Source: Fodinibius sediminis (GTDB lineage Bacteria; Bacteroidota; Rhodothermia; Balneolales; Balneolaceae). Taken from it: 64,000 nucleotides of DNA. This document shows positions 5,498 to 25,888 of this stretch, in pieces. The notes under the pieces were generated by a model. That model searched no databases. It was given only the letters and a program-made list of their open reading frames with translations, and was not told where the DNA came from. How positions within the stretch are numbered: the stretch's first letter is position 1; each line of letters starts with the position of its first letter. The stretch covers positions 62,001 to 126,000 of the forward strand of contig NZ_FXTH01000007.1 of assembly GCF_900182555.1 (NCBI RefSeq), in the 5' to 3' direction. Both the position numbers and the translations under genes were made by a program.

Positions 5498-5598
5498 TCA
5501 TTTAAAACTAAGAAAATACGATTATCAGCGGTTTGTCATCCAGCAGCAGGCAGAAGTCAACAAACTGCTTATCTTGATAAACTGACCCTTGTTGATAT

Positions 5599-5637
5599 AA
5601 AAAAAGGCAACATCCCCGGGAGAGGATATTGCCTTTT
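5599..5637 (-). terminator. Rho-independent terminator after the Gfo/Idh/MocA gene
   Basis: Arms 5602-5615 and 5624-5637 form a 14-bp stem with one mismatch and an 8-base loop. On the minus strand the stem is followed directly by seven T residues (5605-5599, partly overlapping the arm). It begins 16 bases after the stop codon at 5654. The stem also starts with a run of A, so it could act in the opposite direction too, but no plus-strand gene is present. Confidence 0.85.
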
Positions 5638-5653
5638 GAGATTGATCTGCGAT

Positions 5654-6997: not shown

Positions 6998-7055
6998 AAT
7001 TCTTACTCTGTTGTTAAGGTTAATTTCTGTGTTTCATCCGTTATGAAGATCTTCA

Positions 7056-7979: not shown

Positions 7980-8043
7980 GTTGATTATTTTATTACTAAT
8001 CTTGCAAATTATTTATCAGTACCAGCCTATTAAAATACCAAAT

Positions 8044-8109
8044 GCTTGTGGTCCCGGTAATGAATAAAGTCATTTATTGTCTCTTTATCCACTACCGGAC
8101 GTCACAAGC
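8044..8109 (-). repeat. Long imperfect inverted repeat between susD and the TIM-barrel gene
   Basis: Arms 8044-8069 and 8083-8109 pair over about 25 positions with a 13-base loop. The outer part is GCTTGTG against CACAAGC and the inner part is 8056-8069 against 8083-8096. The two mismatches in the inner arm become G-U wobbles only in minus-strand RNA, which is the direction of transcription. It starts 47 bases after the susD stop. It may be an attenuator or an RNA processing/stability hairpin that sets lower expression of the downstream enzymes. There is no long T run. Confidence 0.6.
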
Positions 8110-8156
8110 AGGAGGCATAATTGTTATTATGTAATTAAACTACCTTCAGAGGAATA

Positions 8157-9962: not shown

Positions 9963-9982
9963 AGTGATCTAATATTTAGTAC

Positions 9983-12900
9983 TTAAAATGTTAAGGAAAT
10001 GCCAGCATTAAATACTCTTTTCTGCGGATAATAGGAACCTGCGCCATTTTGGGTCTCCGGGTCCATGAGACCAAAAGAGTCCCAGGTAAGCAGGTTAAAT
10101 CCGTTGAGATATACGCGCATGTTTTTCATACCTATTTTGCTGGTCAGGTCTGACGGCATGTTATAGCCAATTTCCAACGTTTTAAGCCGTACATAATCAG
10201 TGTTTCTAAAGAAGTAGGTATTTTGATTTGCTATCCAGTACTCCTCTGTACGCTGGAACGCCCGCGGTCCTTCTGCATGAGACTGGTCAGGGTGCTGGAG
10301 CATCGGGTTATCCGGATCGGGTCTCCATCGCTTCTCGGCAAATTGGGCAAAGTAGTTTCCGAAATCGCCAGACTCGGTCTGAATATACTGCGAAGCGCCT
10401 GCAGCCCCCTGGAAGAAGGCCGTAAAGTCAAACTGCTTGTAACTGGCCGAGAAGGTGATCCCTCCTGTCCACTCAGGAATGTTGTTTCGGTCGGAGCGAA
10501 CGCGGTCATCAGCAGTGATTTCGCCGTCTCCATCGATATCTTTAAACTTGATATCTCCTGGTCGGACAGCATCTTTATTACCGCCCCAGTATGCCCCATA
10601 TTGGTCAATATCTTCCTGATTCTGGAAGACGCCGTCTGCCACATAATACAGTTCAGTCTCCATCTTTGAACCGGTCGACTGCTGCCACTCAGGAGCGCCG
10701 GGAGCTTCATCCCAGTACTTGATCTCGTTGGTAGCCCAGCCGGCATTCAGCGAGATGTCATAAATGAAGTCTTCATTTACCTGGTCGCTCCAGTTAATGG
10801 AACCGTCAACCCCGTAGCTCGAAACTTCCCCGATATTTTCTTCCGGGAGCGTAAGTCCGGATGTTTGCGGTATCGAAGCGTTACGCTGGGTAAGAATATC
10901 CGTTCTCAGGTAATCGAAGTAGTCGACTTCAACCGAAAGGCGGTTGTCAAGCATAGAGGCCTCGATACCCACGTCAAACTGGTTGGCAACTTCCCAGGTA
11001 ATATTGGGATTCGGTGTGCGTGTCTGATACAAGCTGGGAACTTCTACGCCACCACCAAAAATGTATCCGCCGCCAAAGCCATAGCTGGCCAGGTACTGGT
11101 ACGGATCCACACGGTCGTTACCGGTTTGACCCCAGGAGGCACGCAGTTTAAAGTTGTCAAAGAATTCCACGTTGTTGGTAAAGAACTCTTCTTCCGTAAG
11201 TCTCCACCCAACAGATACCGCCGGGAAGAATCCATAACGGTCATTTTGGGGGAACTTGTACGAACCGTCATAGCGTGCCACCAGTTCAATCAGGTATTTG
11301 CTTTGGTAATCATAATTGATGCGGCTGAAGAAGCTCTGCCATTTTTCCTTATATCCGCTTCCGTCGTTGGAACGCTGAGCTTCACCGCCAGCAAAAAGCT
11401 GGTCAATAGCGGGGGATATATAGTTACGTCTGAAGGCCGTAAACCATGCATTCTTGCTTTCACGGCGCTCAATACCACCCAGCAGGCTGAGGTAGTGATC
11501 GTCAAAATCCCGCTGATACTGAACCACGGCGTTATACAGCAGGTCATAGTTATCATCACTCCACTGTGTCAGCTGGGGTTCCTGGCCGGACGGTCTTGAG
11601 GCCCCGGTTAAATACTGCTCGGGATCACCGCCATTGGCTCTGTAGCCGTCGGCGTCAAAGCCGTAGAGGGTCCATGGCGTCAGCCATTGCTTGCGTTCTC
11701 GCAGCTCTTTGTTATAGGAGAAGGTCCCGCGAACATTCAAGCCTTCAACTCCCGGAATTTCGATATCGGTCACCAGGTTGGTGGTTAAGTAATAGCGATC
11801 ATCCTGGTCATAGCCGGTTGCATCCGTTCCGGTAACCACAGGATTTTGCCCGTTTTCAATATCAGGACCCGGCAGTCCGTTGGGCCAGTATGCAGGGAGC
11901 TGCGGCTTTCCGCGCATCAGCATGCGGAAGGTAGCGCCTGCAGGTTGAGTAGGGAAATTGCGATCTTCATATCGTCCGCTAACATCAAACTGGATGTTAA
12001 TGTTTTCATTCACCTGTCCGTCAATATTACTCCTGAAATTATATTGATTAAAACCGGTCGCACTGTTTTCATAGTATCCATCTTCGGTCAGCGCACCCAG
12101 TGAAATACGATATTGCATGTTCTCACTTCCACCGGACATGGCAAGATCGGCCTGTGTCTGGAGAGAGATGGGCTTAAGCGCTTCAGCGAACCAATCCGTA
12201 TCATGGTACAACCAGGGATCCTGCTGGTCGATATTCTCATGTTTCTGAATCTCCTCCTGAGAATACCGGGGGTCGTTGCCTCGATACATATCCACTTCGT
12301 TCAGCATCCGCAGATAGGTGGGGGCATCCGCCATATCCGGAATGCGCGTCGGCTGGTTAAAGCCCTGGTTGAAGTCGATCGTCAGCTCGGGTTCACCTGA
12401 AGCGCCCCGTTTGGTCGTTACCAGGATGACCCCGTTGGCAGCCTGTGAACCATAGATGGCAGCAGAAGCGTCCTTGAGCACCGTCATATCTTCAATATCC
12501 TGTGGATTCAGGCGATCAAGGGCATTGGCATCCGACGGAATCCCGTCAATTACAACGAGCGGGCTGTTATCCCCCAGCGTATGCTGACCACGAATACGAA
12601 TGGTAGATCCATCATAGCCTGGCTCACCGCTGCTGGTCACAGAAACAACACCGGGCAATTTACCTCCAATGGAGTTTGACGTATTGGCCACCGGACTTTT
12701 TTGCAGTTCTTCTCCACCGACAGCGCTTACCGATCCTGTCAGCGTTTCCCTCTTCTGGGTTCCATAGCCAACTACCACGAGCTCTTCGCCTGCATAGGTC
12801 TGAGAAACCATTTGAATATTGATGGTCTCCCGTCCATCTATGGGGACTTCCTGTCGCTGAAAGCCAATAAACGAAAATACCAGTGTATCTTGAAGAGAAG

Positions 12901-13174
12901 GAACATTCAGCTGGAAGGCTCCATCACTTCCTGTGGTTGTCCCTGTTGTGGTTCCCTTTACAAGGATGTTGACCCCGGGTAACGATTCACCGGATCCGTC
13001 CACAACGGTTCCCGATACTTGCTGAGCCTGAGCCGAAGCCCCCAGCCCCAGCAGTAAAAATGCTATTACCAGCATACTGTTAAAAAACAGAAACCTGGAC
13101 GTGGAATCCGGTCCTTTTCCAACAGTAGTGATATCCAGCAACGTGCCTAATTTTTGTATCACCTTAGTAGTCAT
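9983..13174 (-). CDS. SusC/RagA family TonB-linked outer-membrane transporter
   Basis: 1063 residues. After an unusually long N-terminus a hydrophobic signal segment (near residues 34-50, ending ASAQAQ) precedes a carboxypeptidase-like regulatory domain (VSGTVVDGSGESLPGVNI). The plug domain follows (EELVVVGYGTQKRE, then PLVVIDGIPSDANAL and DASAAIYGSQAANGVILVTTKRG), then a 22-strand type barrel ending in NAGISLTF. There is no STN domain, so it is a transporter without the signalling extension. An internal start near residue 34 would give a more normal signal peptide; I kept ATG 13174. It heads the operon with SusD, the TIM barrel and Gfo/Idh/MocA, and has a 12-bp palindrome just upstream. Confidence 0.95.
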   Translation of the reverse strand: MTTKVIQKLGTLLDITTVGKGPDSTSRFLFFNSMLVIAFLLLGLGASAQAQQVSGTVVDGSGESLPGVNILVKGTTTGTTTGSDGAFQLNVPSLQDTLVFSFIGFQRQEVPIDGRETINIQMVSQTYAGEELVVVGYGTQKRETLTGSVSAVGGEELQKSPVANTSNSIGGKLPGVVSVTSSGEPGYDGSTIRIRGQHTLGDNSPLVVIDGIPSDANALDRLNPQDIEDMTVLKDASAAIYGSQAANGVILVTTKRGASGEPELTIDFNQGFNQPTRIPDMADAPTYLRMLNEVDMYRGNDPRYSQEEIQKHENIDQQDPWLYHDTDWFAEALKPISLQTQADLAMSGGSENMQYRISLGALTEDGYYENSATGFNQYNFRSNIDGQVNENINIQFDVSGRYEDRNFPTQPAGATFRMLMRGKPQLPAYWPNGLPGPDIENGQNPVVTGTDATGYDQDDRYYLTTNLVTDIEIPGVEGLNVRGTFSYNKELRERKQWLTPWTLYGFDADGYRANGGDPEQYLTGASRPSGQEPQLTQWSDDNYDLLYNAVVQYQRDFDDHYLSLLGGIERRESKNAWFTAFRRNYISPAIDQLFAGGEAQRSNDGSGYKEKWQSFFSRINYDYQSKYLIELVARYDGSYKFPQNDRYGFFPAVSVGWRLTEEEFFTNNVEFFDNFKLRASWGQTGNDRVDPYQYLASYGFGGGYIFGGGVEVPSLYQTRTPNPNITWEVANQFDVGIEASMLDNRLSVEVDYFDYLRTDILTQRNASIPQTSGLTLPEENIGEVSSYGVDGSINWSDQVNEDFIYDISLNAGWATNEIKYWDEAPGAPEWQQSTGSKMETELYYVADGVFQNQEDIDQYGAYWGGNKDAVRPGDIKFKDIDGDGEITADDRVRSDRNNIPEWTGGITFSASYKQFDFTAFFQGAAGASQYIQTESGDFGNYFAQFAEKRWRPDPDNPMLQHPDQSHAEGPRAFQRTEEYWIANQNTYFFRNTDYVRLKTLEIGYNMPSDLTSKIGMKNMRVYLNGFNLLTWDSFGLMDPETQNGAGSYYPQKRVFNAGISLTF

Positions 13175-13962: not shown

Positions 13963-15891
13963 TCAGTCGTTCAGGGCGTTAATCCAGTCCGCTATTCTAA
14001 GAGCCTCCTCCTCGGGTACAATGGTCATGGGAGGCATGGCTGTAGCATAGTCGGGCCAGTTAGAAAGGTCGGGATTATATATCAATTCAACCATTTCTTC
14101 ATTGCTGTATCCCCGTTTGGCTATCTCGGCAAAAGGAGGTCCTACCATGCGTTTATTTTGCTGGTGGCAGGAGGTACAGGTATACTGTGAAAGCAGGGGC
14201 TTGATCTCCTCGTAGCTCGGGCTCTCCCCGCTCTGAAGCTGTTCATCTCCGCCCGCTTTCCCGGCTTCCACATCTTCCTTCTGAATGGAGTTCATAGTGC
14301 TTACCTCCTCCATGGAGAGCCGTTCGCCCTGGGGTATTTCCTTAAGTGTATAATAGGCGGAACTATGCAAAAGCGGATTTCCGTCTTTTTTGGATCGAAT
14401 GCCATCCAATTCAATATGGTGTATATAATTTTTTCGCAGATTGTCCACGATAATACGAACACCCATACCGTCTTCAGTTACCTTTACCCCTCTGACTTCC
14501 CCCTGTCCGGGATCAATCATCGGACTTCCATATACAGGGTGATATTTGTATATAAAACTGGATACAGCATAGGAAGCCAGATCCTCAGCCGACGCCCGGT
14601 CAACCGGTTTTGTAAAACGGATCTCGAAGCCATCCGGTCTTACTCTGATTGTTTTCATCTCAAACGGCAGCTGTCGATTCCATACCAGTCGCTGAAGTCC
14701 TTCATCAGCAGTCCCGGCTGATCCCCAGCCCCGGTTTGTCTCGCCAATGAACAGCGAACCATCATCAGCCCAATCCATGCGAAGGACGCCCGACTGAAAC
14801 CCACTGCGGAAGTCCAGAGCAGCCCCCTGGTAGGTTCCATTCACTTTTTCCAGGATAACCCGCATAATCTTGCTTTGTCCCTGGTCACCCACGAGGATCT
14901 GGCCTTCAAAAGGCCCAAAATGTCCTTCAGGAATCTGCTGAATATCAGAGTTGGAAATACCGAGTATTCCATGCGGCAACCACACAGCCGGCGTCTTCAA
15001 GGCAGGAAGTTCATCCTGCAGTTCAAACAATGTCCGGTATTCTTCTTCGTCCGGCTCGTTCTCGGGTTTGATATAGTTGCCGTCTTCATCTTTGTTAAAT
15101 TCCGGGTCTACAAGCTCGTACAGTTCCTCCGCTGTCAAAGAGAGGGGAGCATTCTTTTTATCTGTCCACCGGAGTCCGGCCGGGTGGCCCATAAAATCTC
15201 CTTTCTCAACATGCCATATTCCGCCGGACCCTATCCAGTCTCCCTGATTTTCAGCATAAAACAGCTCGCCGTCCACCAGGCCAAGGCCGGCCGGCGATCG
15301 CATTCCGGTTGCCCAGGGCTGCATCTTTCCATCCGTAGTAATATTCATCATCCACCCTCTCCAAGGCACTCTGCTCTCGCCCCTCCACCACTGTTGGTCG
15401 CCAAATGCCACATTTCCCGAAACAAAAAACGATCCGTCGGGCGCAATAAGCGGTCCATAGCTGTATTCATGATAGTGTCCGGAGAGCGGCCAGGCATAAA
15501 CCGTTTCAATGACATCCGCACGGCCATCCATATCGGAATCCTCCAGCCGTGTAAGTTCTCCACGCTGCACGCAGTAAAGCGCCCCATCCTTATAGGCCAG
15601 TCCCAGTACTTCATGGAGACCTGTGGCAAATTTTTTGAAATGAGGATCCCCGCTGGCTGGGTTTTCAACTATGATAATATCGCCTCTTCGGGTGGCAATA
15701 CCCAGATCCCCGTCCGGCAAAACAGTAAGTCCACCCACTTCCAATAAATAACCTTCGGGGCTTGGAATATCCACAATCGGAAAATAGTCTGCTTCAGCAG
15801 GTGCATCCTGTCCAAAAGAAGGGCTGTTTACAGCCAGCAACATGATCAACACAACATAACAACGACGCAGGTAATACATATACATTTTCAT
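13963..15891 (-). CDS. Dehydrogenase-like beta-propeller with C-terminal cytochrome c domain
   Basis: 642 residues with a Sec signal (residues 1-28, ending SFGQ). A sugar dehydrogenase-like six-bladed propeller fills residues about 35-400, with motifs YHEYSYGP, GMRSPAGLG, NQGDW and FMGHPAGLRW shared with the protein at 21579-23084. A linker leads to a class I cytochrome c domain with CTSCH at 572-576 and a probable axial Met in TAMPPM near 619-622. The family is common in Planctomycetes and Bacteroidota and is presumed to oxidise a substrate in the periplasm and pass electrons to the fused haem; no activity has been shown. It follows the DUF1080 gene by 13 bases, so the two form an operon. 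Confidence 0.85.
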   Translation of the reverse strand: MKMYMYYLRRCYVVLIMLLAVNSPSFGQDAPAEADYFPIVDIPSPEGYLLEVGGLTVLPDGDLGIATRRGDIIIVENPASGDPHFKKFATGLHEVLGLAYKDGALYCVQRGELTRLEDSDMDGRADVIETVYAWPLSGHYHEYSYGPLIAPDGSFFVSGNVAFGDQQWWRGESRVPWRGWMMNITTDGKMQPWATGMRSPAGLGLVDGELFYAENQGDWIGSGGIWHVEKGDFMGHPAGLRWTDKKNAPLSLTAEELYELVDPEFNKDEDGNYIKPENEPDEEEYRTLFELQDELPALKTPAVWLPHGILGISNSDIQQIPEGHFGPFEGQILVGDQGQSKIMRVILEKVNGTYQGAALDFRSGFQSGVLRMDWADDGSLFIGETNRGWGSAGTADEGLQRLVWNRQLPFEMKTIRVRPDGFEIRFTKPVDRASAEDLASYAVSSFIYKYHPVYGSPMIDPGQGEVRGVKVTEDGMGVRIIVDNLRKNYIHHIELDGIRSKKDGNPLLHSSAYYTLKEIPQGERLSMEEVSTMNSIQKEDVEAGKAGGDEQLQSGESPSYEEIKPLLSQYTCTSCHQQNKRMVGPPFAEIAKRGYSNEEMVELIYNPDLSNWPDYATAMPPMTIVPEEEALRIADWINALND

Positions 15892-15904: not shown

Positions 15905-17716
15905 TTAAAAAAGAATGGTATAAGTTAGCTTAGGCCGAACCGGTACGAGAAGCTCTTCTTGCTCACCAACCGATCGTATAAAAGGCTGGGGGGATTCCTC
16001 ACCTTCAATATCCAGGTAGTACGATTGATCATCTACCAGGTAGCGGTTCTCATTATCCTCCGCAATTGAACGACCGATAGCAAGACGGACATACAGATTG
16101 TCAGGACTATTTGAAAAAGTCAGGGTTCTTTGTATCCCCCGGCCTTCAGAAACCACGCGTATTTTATCTTGCACAGACGTACCATAAATTTCGTATCTGA
16201 AGGTTGGATTATCCTTGTCATCAAGCAGGTACCCCCGGGACTTAAAATCAACTCCTGACGTATCATTCTGCCATTTTGCCTGCCTGTCTTTTAGTTCATT
16301 GACCAGGAGTGCAGGATGCTCAACCAGATATTCCACCGAGCCATTGGGCCGTGACGTGCCGTTACCCCTGCTGTGCCACATCGGGGTGGCATCCAGAAAT
16401 TCGCCCCGCCAGATCTGGACCATATTCCCGCGGTTCAGGTCGTAGGTATAATGTACGTTGTCCAGGCTGCTGACAGAGGCCGCATGTGTGATGCGATCAC
16501 CTTTGGGCAAATCCATGAAGCTCCGCAATATCGGCTTCTCCCCCGCCTTCACATAAATGGGGTTTGGGCCGTTGGTTTCGCCCAGCAGGTCTTCACTCAG
16601 CACATGACGACGGAGGCCTTCACCAGAAACGGAAAGTACGAATCCCGGGCTGCCCCAGCTGGCTTGCCGGGCATACATCAGCTCAACTGCAGCGGCTCCT
16701 TTTGGAAGGGAGATGGTACCCTGATTGTTTTCAATGGATACGGTCGGCTGCCCGTTGATGCGCAGTACCCCTGCACCTCCAGAGGCATTAAGGGTAAAAC
16801 GGTAGTCGCCCGCTTCTTTTATATCAAGCGTGCCGGCATAGTGAATCAAAAATTGATTCGGAAGTGTTCCTACATCGGTCGTCAACGACTCCGACGCCCC
16901 TGATTTTACTACTTTCAGCGTATCAAAATCGGGTACTTCGGTAAATAATCCTTCGAATACCTTATAGGACAAACCGTTGACAGACGGGGCCGGGCGATCG
17001 TATTGCCTGATGGAAATATTGCGAAAAGCTACTGCTCCATGGTCGCCCTGTAGCCGCAACGGCCCCCTGGAAACCTCGCCATCTCCCAACGCCCCGCGGG
17101 TAGGTCCCGATAGCTCAACATCCTCATGGATGGTTACCCCATTCAGGGTGGCCCGGATAATTTTTGCATTCGCTATTTTCCGACCCTGCGAATCAAACCG
17201 CGGAGCCCGAAATGAAATCTCTAGATGCTGCCACAACCCCGGGGCCCGGCTAGCATTCTGTCGGGGTGGATGCCCCTGGTATCCCCTCTCGCCTTCCGGT
17301 CTGTTCTCGTCCCATCGCTCGTAGATTCCTCCGTTGTCTCCGGCAGTGGGCTGCTTTACATTCCAGCTATCCAGCAGCTGCACCTCATACCGCCCCTGCA
17401 GATAGATACCAGAGTTGGACCCCCTGGCCATCATATAGTCAAGCTCAAGATCAATATCCCCGTGTTCGAAATTGGTTAGCAAATCCCTGCCCTGGTGACC
17501 TTGGGGAATATTGACCAGCACACCGGTACCCGGTGAAATATCAAGCTGGTTATCCGTTTCCAGGGATGCCGTTACGCCGCCTGAAATAGCCCAGCTTTCG
17601 CCCGGATTTTCAAATGCAGCTAAACCCTCCAGGGCCACCGGATGGGTATCCTGTGCCTGCAGCGGCAAAGCAAGAAACAGTGCCACAACTAAAAAATGGA
17701 TTGGAATTCTTTCCAT
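15905..17716 (-). CDS. DUF1080 (3-keto-disaccharide hydrolase-like) protein with PA14-like and extra C-terminal domain
   Basis: I chose ATG 17716 because it gives a clean signal peptide (MERIPIHFLVVALFLALPLQA). The frame is open to ATG 17806, which would add 30 residues without a signal. A DUF1080/concanavalin-like domain spans residues about 25-240 (MMARGSNSGIYLQGRYEVQLLDSW; PLRLQGDHGAVAFRNI). A PA14-like sandwich follows, near 250-370 (AGDYRFTLNASGGAGVLRING). The last 230 residues resemble the C-terminal half of the blue-copper protein at 23087-24169. DUF1080 enzymes cleave 3-keto-glycosides, so this protein would hydrolyse an oxidised sugar in the periplasm. It precedes the cytochrome c propeller in a two-gene operon. 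Confidence 0.82.
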   Translation of the reverse strand: MERIPIHFLVVALFLALPLQAQDTHPVALEGLAAFENPGESWAISGGVTASLETDNQLDISPGTGVLVNIPQGHQGRDLLTNFEHGDIDLELDYMMARGSNSGIYLQGRYEVQLLDSWNVKQPTAGDNGGIYERWDENRPEGERGYQGHPPRQNASRAPGLWQHLEISFRAPRFDSQGRKIANAKIIRATLNGVTIHEDVELSGPTRGALGDGEVSRGPLRLQGDHGAVAFRNISIRQYDRPAPSVNGLSYKVFEGLFTEVPDFDTLKVVKSGASESLTTDVGTLPNQFLIHYAGTLDIKEAGDYRFTLNASGGAGVLRINGQPTVSIENNQGTISLPKGAAAVELMYARQASWGSPGFVLSVSGEGLRRHVLSEDLLGETNGPNPIYVKAGEKPILRSFMDLPKGDRITHAASVSSLDNVHYTYDLNRGNMVQIWRGEFLDATPMWHSRGNGTSRPNGSVEYLVEHPALLVNELKDRQAKWQNDTSGVDFKSRGYLLDDKDNPTFRYEIYGTSVQDKIRVVSEGRGIQRTLTFSNSPDNLYVRLAIGRSIAEDNENRYLVDDQSYYLDIEGEESPQPFIRSVGEQEELLVPVRPKLTYTILF

Positions 17717-18036
17717 AACAGCATTGCTGAACCGGGATAGAATAGTTTCCTTTTGCCTGATAATCCTCTCATCGGCAGCTGACCTTGGGACCACTTGTAT
17801 AGCCATTTAAATAAGGTGATAAATTTAGTATTAATTTGAATGATTCGTATCAGCGCATACCCTCCACAGCAACCCGCATTGCTCTTCATGATGCCAAGGT
17901 ATAAAGAGCATCTATTGGAGAATTCATTGTCAGAAAGGGTACCAAAAAATCAACTCAATAAAAGAATGATTTTTATTGGAGGCAAATGATATTGGTCCCA
18001 CAGATATCGCCTTCCAGGTATCCAAACGGGCCAAAG
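17717..18036. other. Intergenic region with an AT-rich hairpin
   Basis: No gene is supported here. Bases 17956-17963 (CAATAAAA) and 17971-17978 (TTTTATTG) form a perfect 8-bp, AT-rich stem with a 7-base loop about 60 bases after the aldolase stop at 18037. On the minus strand a T run follows nine bases later. It may be a weak terminator for the aldolase operon. The remainder probably carries the promoter of the DUF1080 operon, but I see no clear boxes. Confidence 0.4.
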
Positions 18037-19110
18037 TCACCCCCTTAGCTGCTGAGCTATTGGGTCGGAATTCAAAAAGTTTTTAACAAAATCATCATCA
18101 TTCAAATGAGGATAACTCTCATAAATCCGGTCTATTTCCTCTTCCTGGCCGGGAGAAAGCATTTCTTCCGGATTCAGGCACCAGCGTCCCTCCAAAAGCC
18201 CCTGCCTGCGAAGAATTTCGTGGATGCCTGGAATACAACCATGAAAATTGTTGGCGGCATCGAAAATGACGGAGTTGGTATCGGTAATCTCTATGCCCCT
18301 TGTCAACAGCTCTTCTATCCGGGCTGAATCACGCTCTTTGAGCTCTTTTATTTCTTTCAGTAAATCCACGGCCTTTCGGGTCCATACCGCCCAGTGTCCC
18401 AACAAACCACCAACAATGGATTTGCTGCGTTCTTCCCCATTGATGTTGAACCGATAAGTCGTTAATAAATCAGGAATAATGTTATCGTCATTGCCCGTAT
18501 ATAAAGCAATATCATCATGCCTTGAGGAATGACAGACAGCCCGTACAACATCCAGCGTCTGGTAGCGGTTAAAGGGAGCCATTTTAATGGCATGGACAGC
18601 GGGAATATCGGCGAAGTCGCGCCAGAAATCAAAGCTGAGCAGCTGGCCACCGACGGCGGGCTGAAGGTAAAAGCCGAACAGGGGTATTTTCTGCCCCACT
18701 TTCTCGGCCCGTTTGATCAGTTCCATTTCAGAATAGTCAGAAAGCCCGCCCATGCTCAGCAGTCCCAGGTCATAACCGAGTGATGCAGCCAGTTCCGCTT
18801 CTTCAATAGCCTGTTCTGTAGGGCCGACCAGCCCGGCAACCTTAATGAACGGTCGTTCCAAATCTGCCTGTTCCACTTCCTCGGCTGCTATCCTGAGCAC
18901 GGGTTCCAACAGGTCAATGCCCTCGTCCCTGATTTCAAACTGTGTTGAATGGACTCCTACAGCTATTCCTCCGGCTCCACTGGCCATATAGTAACGACTG
19001 AGCAATCGCTGTCGTTGCTCATCCAAGTTTCGTTCGGCATCCAAAGCCAATGGGTGAGCGGGTATAACCGTTCCATTCTGCAATTGTTCTTTTACTTCTT
19101 TCTCGATCAT
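18037..19110 (-). CDS. Dihydrodipicolinate synthase/N-acetylneuraminate lyase family aldolase
   Basis: 357 residues, no signal peptide, so cytosolic. The DHDPS/NAL TIM barrel is recognisable from ALDAERNLDEQRQRLLSRYYMASGAGGIAVGVHSTQF at the N-terminal end, AGLVGPTEQAIEEAELAASLGYD in the middle and HAIKMAPF, whose Lys is the expected Schiff-base residue. Members cleave or form 2-keto-3-deoxy acids and related aldols. The gene follows the epimerase by 15 bases and the Nramp-related transporter, and closes the operon, so it probably acts on a sugar acid produced by these partners. It is about 50 residues longer than typical DapA and NanA, with an extended C-terminus. Confidence 0.85.
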   Translation of the reverse strand: MIEKEVKEQLQNGTVIPAHPLALDAERNLDEQRQRLLSRYYMASGAGGIAVGVHSTQFEIRDEGIDLLEPVLRIAAEEVEQADLERPFIKVAGLVGPTEQAIEEAELAASLGYDLGLLSMGGLSDYSEMELIKRAEKVGQKIPLFGFYLQPAVGGQLLSFDFWRDFADIPAVHAIKMAPFNRYQTLDVVRAVCHSSRHDDIALYTGNDDNIIPDLLTTYRFNINGEERSKSIVGGLLGHWAVWTRKAVDLLKEIKELKERDSARIEELLTRGIEITDTNSVIFDAANNFHGCIPGIHEILRRQGLLEGRWCLNPEEMLSPGQEEEIDRIYESYPHLNDDDFVKNFLNSDPIAQQLRG

Positions 19111-19125
19111 CTGCCTGTTGTTGAT

Positions 19126-20142
19126 TTAAAATTTACCTGAGCGCACCTGAAAATGAGTCGGTTTGTTGATCGTTTTCTTATCCCCCTCCACCCACTCGGC
19201 TGTCCATTCGATGAGCTGAAGCAGCGAAACGGATGGATACCCAAAAAGCTTATGAGACAGCGAAGCGTTGTTGAGCAGGGAGGTCGGTTGTTCTTCATTT
19301 TTGAATTTGGGCTTCTTATCGAATATTGTCCCGAATTTATGGGCAACCTCGCGGATGGAGATCGTCTCTGGCCCTGTAACGTTCAGGAGCTTCGGCGGAC
19401 TTGTACAGTGCAGCAGGGATCGCAAGGCGATTTCATTGGCATCTCCCTGCCATATCACATTCATATGACCGTTTCTCAGGTCAATGGGATGCTCGTTGTA
19501 AACCAACTGGGCAATTTCCAGCAGATTCCCATAACGCATCTCAACGGCATAGTTCAGCCGGAAAAGAAGCATTGGTATATTGTACCAGTGAGAAAAATGT
19601 TCAAACACACGTTCCCTGCCGAGACAAGACTGGGCGTATTCCCCCACCGGTCCCGGTGCGGTCTCCTCTGTTGCACCCCCTGAACCAAAAGGCACAAATG
19701 GATAGATATTCCCGGAAGAAAAAGCCACGATCCGGCCATTCTTAAATTTTTCAGAAACCCGGCCGGGAAGATAGGAATTCATGGCCCAGGTAAGATGTTC
19801 ATTGCCAGAAGTTCCAAACTTTTTTCCTACCAGATAAATGACATTCCGTGTTTCAGGAAGGGACTGAAGCTCTTTCTCCTTGAGTAAGTCTGCAGCAATT
19901 GTCTTGACTCCCGAGGCCTCCAGCTCCTCCCTCAGGCCCTCATCAGAAAACCGGGAAACCCCGATTACTTTTTGACTGCTTCCGCTTTTTTTGAAGGCTC
20001 GCACGGCCAGACGGGCCATGCTGGGTCCCATTTTCCCTCCCACTCCCAGTATCAAAATGTCTCCATCAATCTTTGGTATATCTTTAAGCAAGCGTTCTGA
20101 GGGCGACGAAAGTTGATCTTTTAATTCTTCAACAGATTTCAT
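19126..20142 (-). CDS. NAD-dependent epimerase/dehydratase (extended SDR)
   Basis: 338 residues, cytosolic. The nucleotide-binding motif ILILGVGGKMGPSMARLA lies near residues 29-46. The active-site region includes FSSGNIYP and VGEYAQSCLGRERVFEHF; the YAQSCLGRE segment replaces the canonical YxxxK Lys with a Gly-Arg pair in a straightforward alignment, so the catalytic Lys is not obvious. The start codon overlaps the stop of the transporter gene by four bases (ATGA), which implies translational coupling. A role in converting the transported or produced sugar acid before the aldolase step is inferred. The substrate is unknown. Confidence 0.82.
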   Translation of the reverse strand: MKSVEELKDQLSSPSERLLKDIPKIDGDILILGVGGKMGPSMARLAVRAFKKSGSSQKVIGVSRFSDEGLREELEASGVKTIAADLLKEKELQSLPETRNVIYLVGKKFGTSGNEHLTWAMNSYLPGRVSEKFKNGRIVAFSSGNIYPFVPFGSGGATEETAPGPVGEYAQSCLGRERVFEHFSHWYNIPMLLFRLNYAVEMRYGNLLEIAQLVYNEHPIDLRNGHMNVIWQGDANEIALRSLLHCTSPPKLLNVTGPETISIREVAHKFGTIFDKKPKFKNEEQPTSLLNNASLSHKLFGYPSVSLLQLIEWTAEWVEGDKKTINKPTHFQVRSGKF

Positions 20143-21362
20143 AAGAAGATATTTTTAAAGTTTCCTATTGCCAGTCCGAATAATACGATTAATCCAATGA
20201 TACCCATAACGTTATCAATTTTTTTATTAACCAGTGTTCCCATTAGCGATTCATCATTAGCTAATACAAAAATACCCACGCCGATAAATGGAACAACAAA
20301 AATAGTAACCCCCTGGGCAAAAACAATGAGTTCGAGGGGTAGCTCTCCAAATATAATTGCTATTGTTGCTCCCGCTACCATAATTAATGAAATACAGATC
20401 CTCACCGGTTTGCTGCTCAAATCCCGTCCCATTGATAAAGCGTCTGCCAGTAACGTACCTCCGATGGTTGCATTACCGATAAGCGACGAAAAGGATGCCC
20501 CGAACAACCCTGCCATGAACAGAGCCGTCGCCCACTCTCCATACAGCGGGGTCAGGGCCAGGCCCATATCCGAGGCGGAAGCAACTTCGATACCCTGTGG
20601 AAACAAGATTGCCCCGCTGCTAACCAGAATCATGGCAGAAATACATCCCAGGATGAAAATACCTGAAAAACTCTCCTTGACCACCTTTTTTACCTCTCCT
20701 TTGCGCCATCCTTTTTCCTGAACCAGATATGACTGATAGAAAGCCCCAACAATGGAAAAACTAGACGCCACCAGTGCCACAACCAACAACAACGAACCAG
20801 CGGGGATAGAAGGTATGATTCCTGCCCCGACCTTCCCCAGGTCGGGCTGCGTTATAACCAGGGTCAGCAGGAACGAAATCAGCATAACCCCTACCATGGC
20901 AATCATCACTTTTTCCAGGATCTTATAAAAGGATTTAAAGAACAGCAGTATAATTCCGCATACCACCACAAATATAATCCAGGGAGAGGTGCTCGTATTC
21001 AGCATCTCCGCAAAAGCGACTCCTGCCGCAACAGAGTTCCCCGCCTGGAATGACACAGTCACCAAAAAAATACCAATCCCGGTGAACAGGGAGGCCCATT
21101 TCCCCCACCTGTTCTTAAACCCCTGCAGCATTGAACGGTCTGTAGCAATTCCAATCCGGGCTCCCATACTGGTAAAGGCCATCATCAAAATAGTAGAAAT
21201 AACGATCACCCATAAAAGTTCAAACTCATAGATCGCCCCCAGTTTAGAGGTAATGGTTAAGCTGCCGGGTCCAAAAACCAAGGCGGCTGTAATAATGCCG
21301 GGCCCCAGGTAGGTCAACCACTTTTGAGTTACCGAATCCACCGTTTTGTCGTTGTCATTCAT
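20139..21362 (-). CDS. Nramp-family related membrane transporter lacking the metal-binding motifs
   Basis: 407 residues with about 11 predicted membrane helices and the Nramp fold pattern (LGPGIITAALVFGPGSLT in helix 1). The canonical helix 1 metal motif DPGN reads GPGS (residues 31-34), and the helix 6 MPH motif is absent, with SIVGAFYQSYLV near residues 203-214 in its place. Nramp proteins use these residues to bind Mn or Fe, so this protein probably moves something else. It heads an operon with an epimerase and a DHDPS-family aldolase, so an organic acid or sugar acid is a plausible cargo; this is inference. The first copy of the shared 17-base-spaced promoter element lies about 165 bases upstream. 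Confidence 0.83.
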   Translation of the reverse strand: MNDNDKTVDSVTQKWLTYLGPGIITAALVFGPGSLTITSKLGAIYEFELLWVIVISTILMMAFTSMGARIGIATDRSMLQGFKNRWGKWASLFTGIGIFLVTVSFQAGNSVAAGVAFAEMLNTSTSPWIIFVVVCGIILLFFKSFYKILEKVMIAMVGVMLISFLLTLVITQPDLGKVGAGIIPSIPAGSLLLVVALVASSFSIVGAFYQSYLVQEKGWRKGEVKKVVKESFSGIFILGCISAMILVSSGAILFPQGIEVASASDMGLALTPLYGEWATALFMAGLFGASFSSLIGNATIGGTLLADALSMGRDLSSKPVRICISLIMVAGATIAIIFGELPLELIVFAQGVTIFVVPFIGVGIFVLANDESLMGTLVNKKIDNVMGIIGLIVLFGLAIGNFKNIFL

Positions 21363-21525
21363 AATACCAGACTAACCTAAATGCTGCATTTCAGAGTCCC
21401 CGCCCCAACCGTTCCGGATCTTTTGCCATACAAACGGAGAAATTTAAATATAATGCCATCCCATCAAAATACCTGTTATGCATACAGAACAAGCGTTGCC
21501 CAATGCCTGCAGCTCTCCTGTTACT

Positions 21526-21554
21526 TAATACACATGAACCGTTCAAGAGTATTA
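21526..21554 (-). promoter_or_regulatory. Shared TAATAC-N17-GTATTA element, copy 1 (upstream of the Nramp-related operon)
   Basis: In the minus direction the site reads TCTAATACT, 13 bases, TGTGTATTA. It is preceded by a seven-T tract like the one at copy 4. The distal half is 21549-21554 and the proximal half 21526-21531. It lies 25 bases after the stop of the upstream propeller gene and about 165 bases before the transporter ATG, so it would allow this operon to be transcribed on its own. Interpretation as an alternative-sigma promoter or a dyad operator is inference. Confidence 0.65.
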
Positions 21555-21578
21555 GAAAAAAATTGTTCAATTGACAGT

Positions 21579-23084
21579 CTATTTCCGGGATTTCAATTTA
21601 TTTACCGTATAACAAATCAGGCTGTTATCCAGCGTATCTCCTGTAACTGATATGAGATTTTCCAACCGTATCTGGTAGACACGCCCTTCCTGCATAGGCT
21701 GTATATCCAGGGATATCCTTTTGCTGTCTTCAGAACTTCTGACCTCGTTTATTTTTATGGGTTTGATATCCGTGCGATCTGAGCCATATTCCCGGTGGTA
21801 CTTGTAAAAATAGCTTACCACTTCATAATTACTCTTTCTGAGTGCTGTACTATCCCTCACGGCCTTGGTAAAGGTTAAATCAAACCCCTTCGCTGTGAGA
21901 TTGATGTCGTGCACATCCATGGGCTGTTTCCCGGTATAGACAATGCGCTGGATGCCCTGATCGCCGGCCCATCCGCTGGCATTTTGCCCTACCCAGAGGC
22001 TTCCGTCGGGGGCAAAAGCCATCCGGTTATTTCCCTTCCTTAACCCCTGCCCGTCCATGAAGGGAATGGCAGCGCCCTGAAGTACACCGCCAACTTCTTC
22101 CAGCATCACGCGAACAATGCGCTCCCGGTTCATTTCTCCCACAAGTACCTGCCCTGAAAACGGACCAAAAGTGCCATTTGTATCATCTACCAGGGGCTGC
22201 GTCGGTGAATTGGCCATAATATCATGGGGAAATAAAACGGCCGCCTCGGTCCGCATGGCGTCCAGCTCCTCAACCGGCAGCTCTGCGGGCTTTCCGCGGG
22301 CCCAGCCTTCACGCCAAACGAGACTTGCCGGGTGCCCGTAAAAATGATTCTTCCTGACGTTATACAAGGTGCTTGTGCCCACCCAGTCGCCCTGGTTGTC
22401 GGTAACGAGCAGTCGGTCTTGCTGATCAAATCCCAGTCCATTGGGCGAGCGGAACCCAGAGGCATAGGGACGGAGTTCCCCGCCCGGTCCCAGCTGCATA
22501 ACCCAGCCCCGGTATGGAACGGCTGAGTACATCCCCTCGCTGCGGAACCCCAGCCCGTTAATTTCACCGCGAGCGACCTCTCTTCTCATACGCCCCCCGC
22601 TCGATGTCGCATTCAACGCTATGTAGAGGTTTCCCTCCTCGTCACGAACCGGTCCGTAGCTGAATTCGTGGTAATTGCCTGAAATTCCAAAATCATCCGC
22701 TACCTTCTTGTACTGTTCAGCGCGACCATCCCCGTCGGTATCGATAAGCCGTGTCAGCTCGGCATACTGCATTACCAACACTTCGGACTTGTTGACAGCC
22801 AGTATCCCCAGCGGTAGCTGGAGTCCGCTGGCAAAGAAAGTCCATTTTTTTGATTCGGGATGATACGTCATTACTTCCCCCCTTCGGAAGGCTGCAATGA
22901 GGCGGCCGTCGGGCATAAAATCAAGCGCCCCCACTTCACCGCTGAGTCCTTCCGGCAACGGGATATTCTCCACCCGGTATGAGACCTCCGGCTCTTGCGG
23001 CCATCCGGCTTTTGAGCAGCCGGTAAGGCCTGCAGAGATGAGGAAAAAGAAATAGAAAACCGCTCTTATTTTTGGGTTTTGCAT
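21579..23084 (-). CDS. Dehydrogenase-like beta-propeller lipoprotein without haem domain
   Basis: 501 residues with a lipobox (AGLTGC, Cys near residue 23). It is clearly related to the propeller half of 13963-15891: YHEFSYGP, GFRSPNGLG, NQGDWVG and FYGHPASLVW occur in the same order. The cytochrome c domain present there is missing; this protein ends soon after the propeller with a small beta domain. The gene starts two bases after the stop of the blue-copper protein, which could act as its separate electron acceptor. Sugar or polyol oxidation is inferred from the fold only. The lipid anchor would place it on a periplasmic or surface membrane face. Confidence 0.83.
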   Translation of the reverse strand: MQNPKIRAVFYFFFLISAGLTGCSKAGWPQEPEVSYRVENIPLPEGLSGEVGALDFMPDGRLIAAFRRGEVMTYHPESKKWTFFASGLQLPLGILAVNKSEVLVMQYAELTRLIDTDGDGRAEQYKKVADDFGISGNYHEFSYGPVRDEEGNLYIALNATSSGGRMRREVARGEINGLGFRSEGMYSAVPYRGWVMQLGPGGELRPYASGFRSPNGLGFDQQDRLLVTDNQGDWVGTSTLYNVRKNHFYGHPASLVWREGWARGKPAELPVEELDAMRTEAAVLFPHDIMANSPTQPLVDDTNGTFGPFSGQVLVGEMNRERIVRVMLEEVGGVLQGAAIPFMDGQGLRKGNNRMAFAPDGSLWVGQNASGWAGDQGIQRIVYTGKQPMDVHDINLTAKGFDLTFTKAVRDSTALRKSNYEVVSYFYKYHREYGSDRTDIKPIKINEVRSSEDSKRISLDIQPMQEGRVYQIRLENLISVTGDTLDNSLICYTVNKLKSRK

Positions 23085-23086
23085 CG

Positions 23087-24169
23087 TTATTCTTTTTCCT
23101 TCTTCATTATTATAGTGAAGGCGCCTGCCTCCTGCGGGTTCAATTCAAGCAGCGAACCATTCCAGGTCCCCTTGCTGGATTTGACAATGACATCCTCTTG
23201 CGGGGAATAGCTAAAATACACCTTCTGCCCGACCTCCGGGATCCTGAAGCTGCGTTGTATGCTTCTCCCGTTGCCTGCCGGTTCTATCCGTTCATACACA
23301 GCTTCTCCCTGCACCCTATAATGAAACTCCGGGTATCCTTTTTCAGTCACCTTAAACCCCAGGTATTCAACGTTTGGCTCTTGCTGAGGCGCTCCAACCC
23401 GCAACGGAAATTTTTTCTGCTCGCGATAGAATACCGTACCCATAAGCTGAGCAACAGCATCTCCCTTCGTTGACCATCGCACGGAATTGTCTACAAAACC
23501 GCCCGTCCACACATACTGAAGGCGGCAAACATCCGGATCCCAGCAATAGGACAGGTTCTCAGAAAGTCTGACGGCAATGGAAGCCGGTCCTGCACCGGGC
23601 ATGGAGGTGCGATACCAAAAGGGCGGATTTTCTGTTTTGTAAGGTCGCAGTATGCTGTTTGAATCATCCTTGATCATTCTGCGTTCAGCTGGTATATGCA
23701 AATCTTCCGTCAATGGTGGCAGCTTGTTTTCTGATACATACATAGCGCCGTACATGATAATTCCGTGGCCCGGGAATGTACATACGTATGGATAAACACC
23801 CTGCTGCACCGGAGCTTTAAATGAAATCGTATACGAATCGCCAGGTGACAACATCGGAGTAGCCCAAAGTACTTTTTCTGTTTCCGGGATAAAATCCATT
23901 TCTTCTCCTTCCGTCCCAAGCTTCAGTGCTGCTTCAACAACGCTTTTCCGGGCGCCGGGTTCAGTAATCAAGAGGTTATGATCCAGGTCATCCGCATTTT
24001 CAAAAACAAGCTGTATCTCCTCTCCCGGATTCACCCGGAACCGGACCTTGTCATACTGCATTCCGGGGATGGCGCGAATGGTGACGACCTGCTCTTTATC
24101 CTGGGCCCTACTCTCCGGTATCCATATCAGCAAAAAGCATGCAAGGAAAATATTACGGAGAATAGTCAT
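23087..24169 (-). CDS. Auracyanin/azurin-like blue-copper protein with extra C-terminal domain
   Basis: The start is ATG 24169; a TTG sits one codon upstream. A signal peptide (residues 1-22) precedes a cupredoxin domain with all type 1 copper ligands in azurin spacing: His64 (DDLDHNLLI), Cys130, His135 and Met139 (YVCTFPGHGIIMYG). The C-terminal 190 residues form a second domain that resembles the end of the DUF1080-PA14 protein at 15905-17716, sharing the pattern WxGxFxD, then GYPEFHYRVQG and GRSIQR. The gene lies between a PQQ-type dehydrogenase (32 bases upstream) and a haem-free propeller (2 bases downstream), which marks it as a periplasmic electron carrier for one or both. Confidence 0.88.
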   Translation of the reverse strand: MTILRNIFLACFLLIWIPESRAQDKEQVVTIRAIPGMQYDKVRFRVNPGEEIQLVFENADDLDHNLLITEPGARKSVVEAALKLGTEGEEMDFIPETEKVLWATPMLSPGDSYTISFKAPVQQGVYPYVCTFPGHGIIMYGAMYVSENKLPPLTEDLHIPAERRMIKDDSNSILRPYKTENPPFWYRTSMPGAGPASIAVRLSENLSYCWDPDVCRLQYVWTGGFVDNSVRWSTKGDAVAQLMGTVFYREQKKFPLRVGAPQQEPNVEYLGFKVTEKGYPEFHYRVQGEAVYERIEPAGNGRSIQRSFRIPEVGQKVYFSYSPQEDVIVKSSKGTWNGSLLELNPQEAGAFTIIMKKEKE

Positions 24170-24201: not shown

Positions 24202-25755
24202 TTATTTCCCTGTCGATCTGTTGTCCCTCAGGTTTTCCACTTCTTCCGGCCGGATCCCAGTGGCATTGTTCCCAAAATGGGAACGGATATAGGTTAGCAG
24301 TTCAGCGATCTCTTTGTTACTTAAAAAGCTAAAAGCCGGCATTGCTTCCCTATAGTCTCCTCCTTCACCACTGACTCCCTCCAGTACCATGCTGATCAGT
24401 GCTTTCTTATCGCCGGAGATGACGGGTGTTTCCTCAAGGGAAGGGAAAGTGCCCGAAAGCCCGCCTCCTCCCGGCATATGACAGGAAGCACAATACTTCT
24501 GATAGGCCAGGGCACCTTTCGACAGAGTTGCAGAGAAACTCTTCAGAGAATCTGATACCATCTCCCGGACTGAGACTACTCCGCTGAGTTCCTCCTCATT
24601 GGTTATTTTCGAAAGCCTCAGTATACGATCATCTTCAGGGACGGGGAAATTTTCCTGTGGTTTCCAGTCGTGATTACTCGTGGATACGTAGACATCGCCT
24701 GCGGGCGAAATGCATACATCCCGAAGACGGCCGAATATTTTCTCCATTAAGGTCCGCTCTCCGCGAATGGCCGTGCCTTTGTCGTTCAGCGAGAGCACAT
24801 GCAGGGTGGCATTCTTCAAGGTGGCAAGAATCAGGGAATTCTCCCACTCGGGGATATGATCGGAACCATAATACGCCAACCCGGCCGGGGCAATGGTAGG
24901 CGTCCATGTTTTCAACGGCTCTGCAACTGAAGAATCAGCGCAGACTTCCCTTTCTTCCGGGCCATCACACTTTCCTTCCACATGCGGCCATCCATAATTT
25001 CTCCCCTTCTCAATCAAATTGATTTCATCATCCGTGGCTTGGCCATGCTCAGAGGTATAAAGACGGCTGTTATTACCAAAGGTCAGCCCCTGCTGGTTCC
25101 GATATCCCCACGACCATACCGGACTGCCGGGGAAAGGGTTATCTTCGGGAATACTCCCGTCAATGTTCAACCGCAGGATTTTTCCACCGAGTGAATGGAT
25201 ATCCTGGGCATTGGCTGCGTGGCCCGCTTCTCCGGTTGCAACGATTACTTTATCCTCCGGCGAAATGGCAAGCCGCGATCCGTTATGCCCCTTGCCCCCG
25301 GGAATCTCCAGCAACAAAGTTGGTTTTACCAGGCTGTCGCCGTCAACCGTGTAACGCACCAGATTCAATACTATCGCTTCATCCTCATCCATTGAGTTAT
25401 ACAAGAGAAAGACATACGGTGACGCCCCCTGGTTGGGATGGATATCCATGCCCAGCAAGCCGGGGGTCGTTCTCAAATAAACATCGTCCAGCTCAAGCAT
25501 GGTAACCTTTTCACCCGTACGGGGATTCAGTCTTTTGACCACCCCCTTCTGTTCCGTTATCCATATCCAATCATCGGGTCCCCAGGTAATTTCCCAGGGT
25601 ACATCAAGGCCGGCTGCAACGGTACTGATGCCCACCATGGTAGAATCCAGGGTGACATAGGTGTCAATAGAAGGATTTTGAGACGGGGCGTCCTGTTTGT
25701 TTTGACAACTATATAAACAGAGCATACCCAGTATGACAGTAAAATAATTTCTCAT
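24202..25755 (-). CDS. PQQ-dependent aldose/sorbosone dehydrogenase-type lipoprotein with cytochrome c domain
   Basis: 517 residues from ATG 25755 (a TTG lies one codon earlier). The lipobox is CLYSC, Cys near residue 17. The propeller shows the soluble glucose dehydrogenase motifs: GHNGSRLAIS with the catalytic-type His, GGKILRLNIDG, and WSWGYRNQQGL with the Arg that contacts PQQ. A cytochrome c domain follows, with CASCH at 422-426 and a likely Met ligand in EAMPAF near 472. It should oxidise aldoses in the periplasm and pass electrons to the fused haem and then perhaps to the cupredoxin encoded next. PQQ dependence is an inference from the motifs. No pqq genes are in the window. Confidence 0.9.
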   Translation of the reverse strand: MRNYFTVILGMLCLYSCQNKQDAPSQNPSIDTYVTLDSTMVGISTVAAGLDVPWEITWGPDDWIWITEQKGVVKRLNPRTGEKVTMLELDDVYLRTTPGLLGMDIHPNQGASPYVFLLYNSMDEDEAIVLNLVRYTVDGDSLVKPTLLLEIPGGKGHNGSRLAISPEDKVIVATGEAGHAANAQDIHSLGGKILRLNIDGSIPEDNPFPGSPVWSWGYRNQQGLTFGNNSRLYTSEHGQATDDEINLIEKGRNYGWPHVEGKCDGPEEREVCADSSVAEPLKTWTPTIAPAGLAYYGSDHIPEWENSLILATLKNATLHVLSLNDKGTAIRGERTLMEKIFGRLRDVCISPAGDVYVSTSNHDWKPQENFPVPEDDRILRLSKITNEEELSGVVSVREMVSDSLKSFSATLSKGALAYQKYCASCHMPGGGGLSGTFPSLEETPVISGDKKALISMVLEGVSGEGGDYREAMPAFSFLSNKEIAELLTYIRSHFGNNATGIRPEEVENLRDNRSTGK

Positions 25756-25888
25756 CAACAGCCGGTAGTATTAAGAACGGTTAGTTTCATCTGTATCCCT
25801 TCATTTTGTCAAATAATCATGCCATACAACTTTTGAATCTCCCTGTTTGCTCATTGCGCTGCAACCAGCATCCGTGCCTCTTTGCCCA

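Follow-up and report, generated by a model that had tools for sequence, protein, structure and literature searches.

Why two secreted proteins of otherwise different make-up should end in the same domain is the question raised by two neighbouring operons of Fodinibius sediminis. The operons lie on the minus strand of the stretch analysed here, 64,000 nucleotides of contig NZ_FXTH01000007.1 (positions 62,001 to 126,000), which is hereafter referred to as the window and numbered from its first letter. In pair 1, the gene of a DUF1080–PA14 protein (15905..17716) precedes that of a propeller with a C-terminal cytochrome c (13963..15891). In pair 2, the gene of a cupredoxin protein (23087..24169) precedes that of a propeller without a carrier of its own (21579..23084). 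The initial annotation proposed that the two upstream proteins share a homologous C-terminal domain, and that this domain is an adaptor recruiting diverse partners to a propeller with a YHE-SYGP motif. The homologous domain and its near-exclusive link to the propeller hold in the analysis below, whereas the recruiting adaptor does not. With moderate confidence, we consider the domain, a relative of Pfam DUF6797, and the YHE-SYGP propeller to be the fixed partner halves of a split secreted oxidoreductase that acts as one functional unit. The two operons are probably two-gene versions of an uncharacterised secreted enzyme for the oxidation of sugars outside the cell.

Both upstream open reading frames (ORFs) were judged to be real, with starts that are sensible by eye. 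The longest ORF of the pair 1 gene opens at 17806, and the methionine at 17716 opens a signal-peptide-like stretch (by eye). The pair 2 gene starts at 24169 with an ATG just inside a TTG. The C-terminal regions share the motif order WRGEF/WTGGF, NPTFRYEIYG/YPEFHYRVQG and IQRTLTFS/IQRSFRIP. BLASTP of the two proteins gave 48.5 bits (E = 2e-10; 23% over 124 residues), and that of the domain-only regions gave E = 2e-11, both E-values being those of a single comparison. The profile–profile comparison on which the initial annotation had staked the homology was performed with hhalign between two sets of domains, 15 from the DUF1080-and-cytochrome type and 7 from the cupredoxin type. It aligned 143 columns with a probability of 98.8% (E = 9.5e-17). 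Together with the BLASTP result for the whole proteins, this value rules out a chance similarity of the two regions.

The two regions occupy 15908..16591 and 23090..23686, with matches to the Pfam model of DUF6797 (PF20601) at 16169-16447 and 23291-23545. The scores of these matches, 20.9 and 18.6 bits, are under the gathering cut-off of 24.9 bits, and one orthologue from the same genus reaches 25.2 bits. A profile of domains that are encoded apart from the propeller, as in the window (hereafter the split type), was built from 50 of 52 candidate regions (profile A3; the incomplete L127 and the fused L032 were left out). Comparison of this profile with the canonical DUF6797 domains of ten chosen fused chains (alignment A8) gave an hhalign probability of 95.3% and an E-value of 2.2e-8. 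Judged from these alignments, the shared region is a divergent homologue of Pfam DUF6797 that falls below scoring membership. A match to DUF6797 in genome G081, next to an ORF that by eye resembles carbamoyl-phosphate synthase, was rejected as due to chance.

The distribution of the split type was surveyed in 395 genomes of the phylum of the window organism, Bacteroidota. Profile A3 gave 51 matches at an E-value of at most 1e-5, in 33 genomes. A propeller profile (A4, built from 40 of 50 propellers) was applied to the best candidates, three per genome at most, and E-values below 1e-175 were taken as strong matches. The number of strong matches was also 51, in the same 33 genomes and with equal counts in each genome, and it stayed at 51 once every candidate in the 33 genomes had been scored; for the other 362 genomes the counts are those with three candidates at most. 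Inclusion of weaker propeller matches (E at most 1e-20) raised the total to at least 47 genomes; they sit in ORFs of 793-1239 residues, apart from two partial ones in or near known pairs. The propeller gene is the next gene downstream on the same strand for 50 of the 51 split-type matches. In 47 of these 50 linked pairs the genes overlap or lie within 60 nt, and the remaining gaps are 84, 162 and 362 nt, the longest of which (L095) holds a called ORF of 118 residues. The gaps in the window are 13 nt (pair 1) and 2 nt (pair 2). In the sole unlinked case, genome G258, the DUF1080–DUF6797 gene is on contig 2 (L101) and the propeller–cupredoxin gene is on contig 26 (L211), where it stands behind a malate-dehydrogenase-like gene. 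These counts support a near-exclusive link of the split type to the YHE-SYGP propeller.

A second set of loci was collected by way of the propeller from named relatives (Chitinophaga, Pedobacter, Spirosoma, Algoriphagus, Pontibacter and others). In this biased set, the 80 closest of 556 relatives, a DUF6797 gene lies directly upstream of the propeller in 78 loci; L182 ends at a contig edge, and L161, taken up below, has no DUF6797 gene in this position. Alignments A5 and A6 each comprised the two window sequences, together with 73 of 77 and 46 of 78 named rows, respectively. In Lunatimonas salinarum (L163, 5938-7887), a propeller gene that is split into two ORFs adjoins an intact DUF1080–DUF6797 gene. 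The pairwise distances of the two partners correlate with an r of 0.876 over 40 pairs (reached by 0 of 2000 permutations) and of 0.744 over the 33 pairs outside the cupredoxin–DUF6797 clade, though co-inheritance alone would also produce such a correlation.

In the canonical family, the two halves are found in one chain. Across the 395 genomes, 31 matches to Pfam DUF6797 reached at least 64 bits. The ORFs that contain them are 793-1446 residues long, and the propeller follows DUF6797 in the same ORF and in the same order in 31 of 31; for 12 of these the order was read from propeller-profile matches within the ORF. The window genome itself encodes a canonical DUF6797 protein that is such a fused chain. 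Ten other Pfam matches scored 25.2 bits or less and belong to nine split-type proteins and one chain of genome G108. Further domains were observed on one fused chain each: ThuA on L034, a C-terminal cupredoxin after DUF6797 and the propeller on L033, a cytochrome c at the N-terminus of L039, and on L031 cytochrome domains that follow a PA14 match under the cut-off. Locus L031 encodes two adjacent divergent chains of about 1,440 residues (3681-8003 and 8634-12929), each with five CxxCH motifs, DUF6797 and a propeller. Five other chains of about 1,220 residues (L212-L216) contain a propeller and one CxxCH each, and in the two that were compared with Pfam (L212 and L214) cytochrome c, PA14, the propeller and DUF1080 were detected in one polypeptide. 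The N-terminal domain of nine chains, these five and L217-L220, matched the split-type profile (hhalign 95.3%, E = 2.4e-8), and the Pfam DUF6797 match at this domain is weak (E = 0.0042 in L214, none in L212). The parts of window pair 1 are thus joined in single chains elsewhere, in a different order.

The linked pairs agree in their electron carrier. When both kinds were counted on both partners, exactly one kind was present in 50 of 50 linked pairs, and none had two or zero. Cytochrome c is on the propeller in 15 pairs, cupredoxin is on the propeller in 28, and cupredoxin is on the DUF6797 protein in 7, one of which is window pair 2. The sole carrier of pair 1 is the cytochrome c domain (13972..14193) behind the YHEYSYGP propeller; its matches to PF00034 (E = 0.0081) and PF13442 (E = 0.0014) are sub-cutoff, and the CxxCH motif is present (CTSCH). 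The sole carrier of pair 2 is the cupredoxin domain (PF00127, 23735..24064) of the upstream protein, which contains all the type-1 copper ligands, His, Cys, His and Met, in the pattern HN...C-T-F-P-G-H....M. The YHEFSYGP propeller downstream of it has a lipoprotein-like N-terminus by eye. All 36 cupredoxin copies, one of which is an additional fragment, appear to have the four copper ligands (32 by pattern and 4 by eye). On a tree of 40 propellers, carrier type and place together need three changes and the cytochrome c state needs two, and the seven rows with cupredoxin on the DUF6797 protein form one supported group. Two members of the cupredoxin–DUF6797 type from the window's genus (L124 and L128) have YAE for YHE in the propeller and PAH for PGH in the cupredoxin. 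Another protein of this type (L130, 7954-9633) is extended at its C-terminus by about 200 residues, which are LamG-like by eye. The strongest new facts are that domain and propeller co-occur 51 to 51, that they are fused in a constant order, and that each pair has one carrier whose place can change.

The domain on the N-terminal side of the split type is DUF1080 in 42 of 51 cases and cupredoxin in 7; in one case neither was detected, and one lies at a contig end. The DUF1080 or 3-keto-disaccharide hydrolase domain of pair 1 (PF06439, 17006..17527) scored 97.5 bits (E = 1.3e-27) relative to a cut-off of 26.8. The PA14-like domain (PF07691, 16700..16879) is sub-cutoff in the window protein and above the cut-off in orthologues (L041 and L042). 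PA14 seems dispensable, because shorter split proteins of 472-491 residues (L089, L090, L091, L094 and L096) have DUF1080 near DUF6797 and no space for the PA14 stretch. An indirect link to the propeller through DUF1080 alone was rejected. In the window genome, 21 of the 23 DUF1080 matches lie outside DUF6797 ORFs, and their coordinates place none of the 21 beside any of the three strong propellers of the genome; the two matches on DUF6797 ORFs are the only ones that adjoin such propellers.

The predicted fold and the carrier point to an oxidoreductase function of the propeller. The AlphaFold2 model of 13963-15891 has a mean predicted local distance difference test (pLDDT) score of 86.9 and a predicted template modelling (pTM) score of 0.80. 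In the VIA structure comparison, it was placed near solved members of the glucose/sorbosone dehydrogenase (GSDH) family. The six best rows were all glucose/aldose sugar dehydrogenases, with Z values of 28.5 (2ism) to 25.7, and two of them carry pyrroloquinoline quinone (PQQ) in their titles. Arg198 is invariant in 40 of 40 propellers and His141 of the YHE motif is kept in 38; the two may correspond to catalytic residues of soluble glucose dehydrogenase (sGDH). The propeller might instead be a glycoside-cleaving or sugar-binding enzyme whose heme or copper domain serves, for example, in sensing or protection from oxygen. SMP30-type propellers come next in the structure comparison (Z 24.4), the YHE motif is not universal, and a purified TIGR02604-type protein composed of a propeller, HEAT repeats and cytochrome c was reported to hydrolyse lactose, releasing glucose (PMC5342196). 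This alternative appears unlikely to us, since the best structural rows are dehydrogenases throughout and each pair keeps one kind of carrier while the cytochrome c state changes twice on the tree, as for an exchangeable electron exit. The TIGR02604-type protein is a distant relative described as having no DUF1080 (PMC5342196), and it therefore speaks for a disaccharide substrate and not for the DUF1080 step.

As a docking adaptor, the domain would recruit a wide range of proteins to one shared propeller scaffold. The variety of domains on its N-terminal side, DUF1080 or cupredoxin in the split type and ThuA, cytochrome c or the five-CxxCH region with its PA14 in fused chains, is what such an adaptor would display. 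This proposal of the initial annotation is nevertheless rather unlikely. The fusion in all 31 canonical cases and the one-to-one genome counts indicate that DUF6797 is not a tag on otherwise free proteins, and the domain is better read as half of a propeller enzyme. The partners in the split type are also few and reduce to one enzyme domain and one carrier. This cupredoxin is of the same kind as the C-terminal one on 28 propellers, and it is better explained as a carrier encoded on either gene than as a recruited partner. It is more improbable still that the two proteins merely act in sequence in one pathway without contact, with adjacency and fusion reflecting shared use only: the abundance of DUF1080 without DUF6797 in the window genome implies that cleavage needs no complex, but one carrier kind in every pair would be difficult to account for without contact between propeller and carrier, the canonical fusions keep one order, and the partner distances correlate, for which co-inheritance suffices.

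Several observations weigh against the preferred reading of DUF6797 and the propeller as halves of one oxidoreductase. Adjacency and fusion indicate functional linkage and not binding, and the dehydrogenase activity is a prediction. Runella zeae has a propeller–cytochrome c gene (L161, 5995-7923) without a DUF6797 gene upstream in the locus, and none of the fused chains that were fetched shows a YHE-SYGP motif. The His of YHE is replaced by Ala in 2 of the 40 propellers (L124 and L128). The hhalign comparison of the propeller with the canonical GSDH of the window was not significant (1.2%). PF07995 (GSDH) scored 23.2 bits for 21579-23084, under its cut-off of 25, and no match was listed for 13963-15891. 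No PqqE match was found in the window genome at an E-value of 0.001, PqqE being the only PQQ gene searched; PQQ would thus need to be taken up, or another cofactor would be used. As for the substrate, DUF1080 is not necessarily a 3-keto domain, an endo-xanthanase/lichenase being one example, and none of the ten DUF1080 genes of a Pedobacter strain gave a lactose phenotype (PMC9007349). In neighbourhood counts obtained by iterated search from the window genes, with the window excluded, no more than 6 of 49 survey loci have an AP-endonuclease-like or GFO/IDH gene nearby. The AP-endonuclease search found just two proteins in all and was probably insensitive.

The complex, redox activity, cofactor and substrate that we infer for the pair can be combined as follows. 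The unit would be one chain in canonical DUF6797 proteins and two adjacent genes of conserved order in the split type, each linked unit having one kind of carrier, cytochrome c or cupredoxin, on either partner and most split units having DUF1080. The propeller, with its predicted aldose-sugar-dehydrogenase fold, would oxidise a sugar or glycoside outside the cytoplasm, and the electrons would reach the respiratory chain by way of the carrier. DUF6797 would keep the upstream domains in contact with the propeller and might help to form the sugar site, and the oxidised glycoside would be cleaved by DUF1080. More tentatively, and with considerable doubt, the whole can be pictured as a modular secreted "oxidative glycosidase": a glycoside would be oxidised (e.g. 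at C3) by the DUF6797–propeller dehydrogenase, the electrons would pass to a built-in carrier that can be exchanged, either cytochrome c or cupredoxin, and the resulting keto-glycoside would be cut, prior to its release, by the DUF1080 domain that DUF6797 keeps in place.

Two single-domain DUF1080 proteins have been characterised, the 3-ketotrehalose hydrolase BT2157 and the endo-xanthanase/lichenase mentioned above, and a periplasmic 3'-ketolactose hydrolase (proposed to be CCNA_01705) beside a lactose 3-dehydrogenase was proposed for Caulobacter (PMC9007349). Given the endo-xanthanase/lichenase example and the null lactose phenotypes in the same source, DUF1080 suggests but does not prove 3-keto chemistry. 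Two enzymes encoded in an Agrobacterium operon, a TIM-barrel eliminase and a Gfo oxidoreductase, have 3-keto-glucosides as substrates (PMC10628242). Downstream of pair 1 and on the same strand (5654..13174), the window contains a SusC-like gene by eye (9983-13174), SusD (8157-9962), an AP_endonuc_2 TIM barrel (7056-7979) and a GFO/IDH/MocA oxidoreductase (5654-6997). In the survey, SusC is near 21 and SusD near 14 of the 49 loci. A 3-keto-glycoside chemistry for the pair is suggested by DUF1080 but has weak support from the gene context. ThuA has a role in 3-keto chemistry, and its presence on fused chain L034 would point the same way.

The DUF6797 domain itself is predicted to be a beta-sandwich. 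The AlphaFold2 model of the window domain, computed with 74 other rows, is nearly all beta (mean pLDDT 94.0; pTM 0.90). The closest structures were GH38 C-terminal regions (Z 11.3), followed by the YidC periplasmic domain (10.9), PL33 lyases (10.6), LacZ C-terminal regions (about 10) and a putative mutarotase (9.4). This arrangement is frequent in carbohydrate enzymes, and the Z values are no proof of function. A sequence search of the PDB with the DUF6797 profile gave no solved relative and one chance match (E = 0.38). The same search with the propeller profile gave 28 rows of designed "Pizza" propellers and PknD-type kinase propellers, which were attributed to a repeat effect. The window contains at least four propellers of related kinds. 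They include a canonical glucose/sorbosone dehydrogenase propeller with cytochrome c next to pair 2 (24202..25758, minus strand), and a complete DUF7133 propeller with HEAT repeats is found at 30399-32501 (392.7 bits).

Taken with the one-to-one pairing and the single kind of carrier in each pair, the one-chain versions suggest a joint role of these families that can be put to the test: a secreted sugar oxidoreductase that uses either cytochrome c or copper as its exchangeable carrier and is otherwise constant. If this is right, an electron-transfer enzyme would be added to extracellular glycoside breakdown, and proteins annotated today only as DUFs or cytochromes would gain a role. GFO/IDH enzymes are other dehydrogenases of the 3-keto route. 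If cleavage by DUF1080 does follow oxidation as pictured above, a further kind of dehydrogenase for 3-keto glycan breakdown would stand besides the LacABC type (PMC9007349). In open-access full texts, which leave most subscription papers outside and a description elsewhere possible, no paper naming DUF6797 or DUF7133 was found. Searches of these texts for "PVC-type heme-binding" and "3-keto-disaccharide hydrolase" found nothing, and DUF1080 with cytochrome and PA14 gave off-topic papers, Pseudomonas strain papers among them.

Compared with known systems, the window domain is the same domain as Pfam PF20601 according to the hidden Markov model (sub-cutoff) and the profile comparison. However, canonical members score 64-126 bits and lie N-terminal to the propeller in one chain, whereas the window domain is C-terminal in a separate protein. 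The likeness of its predicted fold to the GH38 C-terminal, LacZ C-terminal and mutarotase-like beta-sandwiches (Z 11.3 to about 9) extends to the general arrangement only, since many unrelated rows score alike. The propeller resembles the aldose sugar dehydrogenases of GSDH fold (2ism, 3a9g, 3das, 7cgz, 7cdy and 2g8s; soluble quinoprotein glucose dehydrogenase 1qbi) in its predicted fold (Z 22.5 to 28.5) and in Arg198, which the weak alignment with the window's canonical GSDH places at the GxRN motif. It differs from them in the absence of a significant profile match, in the His that is not universal, and in the genome without a PqqE match. With DUF7133 (PF23500) and TIGR02604 Piru_Ver_Nterm proteins, the propeller region shares matches to both models as well as cytochrome c fusions. 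For PF23500 (cut-off 27 bits), 21579-23084 scores 32.9 bits and 13963-15891 scores 13.9 bits, and the TIGR02604 scores of 54.6 and 18.9 bits are both under the cut-off of 122.2. Unlike these DUF7133 and TIGR02604 proteins, the window pairs are encoded by two genes, give no HEAT match, and include DUF6797 with DUF1080 or cupredoxin. Finally, the 3-keto-glycoside hydrolases BT2157 and CCNA_01705 have in common with pair 1 a DUF1080 domain in an exported protein. They consist of a single DUF1080 domain, CCNA_01705 being encoded near LacABC (PMC9007349), while the DUF1080 domain of the window shares its chain with DUF6797 and is encoded as a pair with a propeller.

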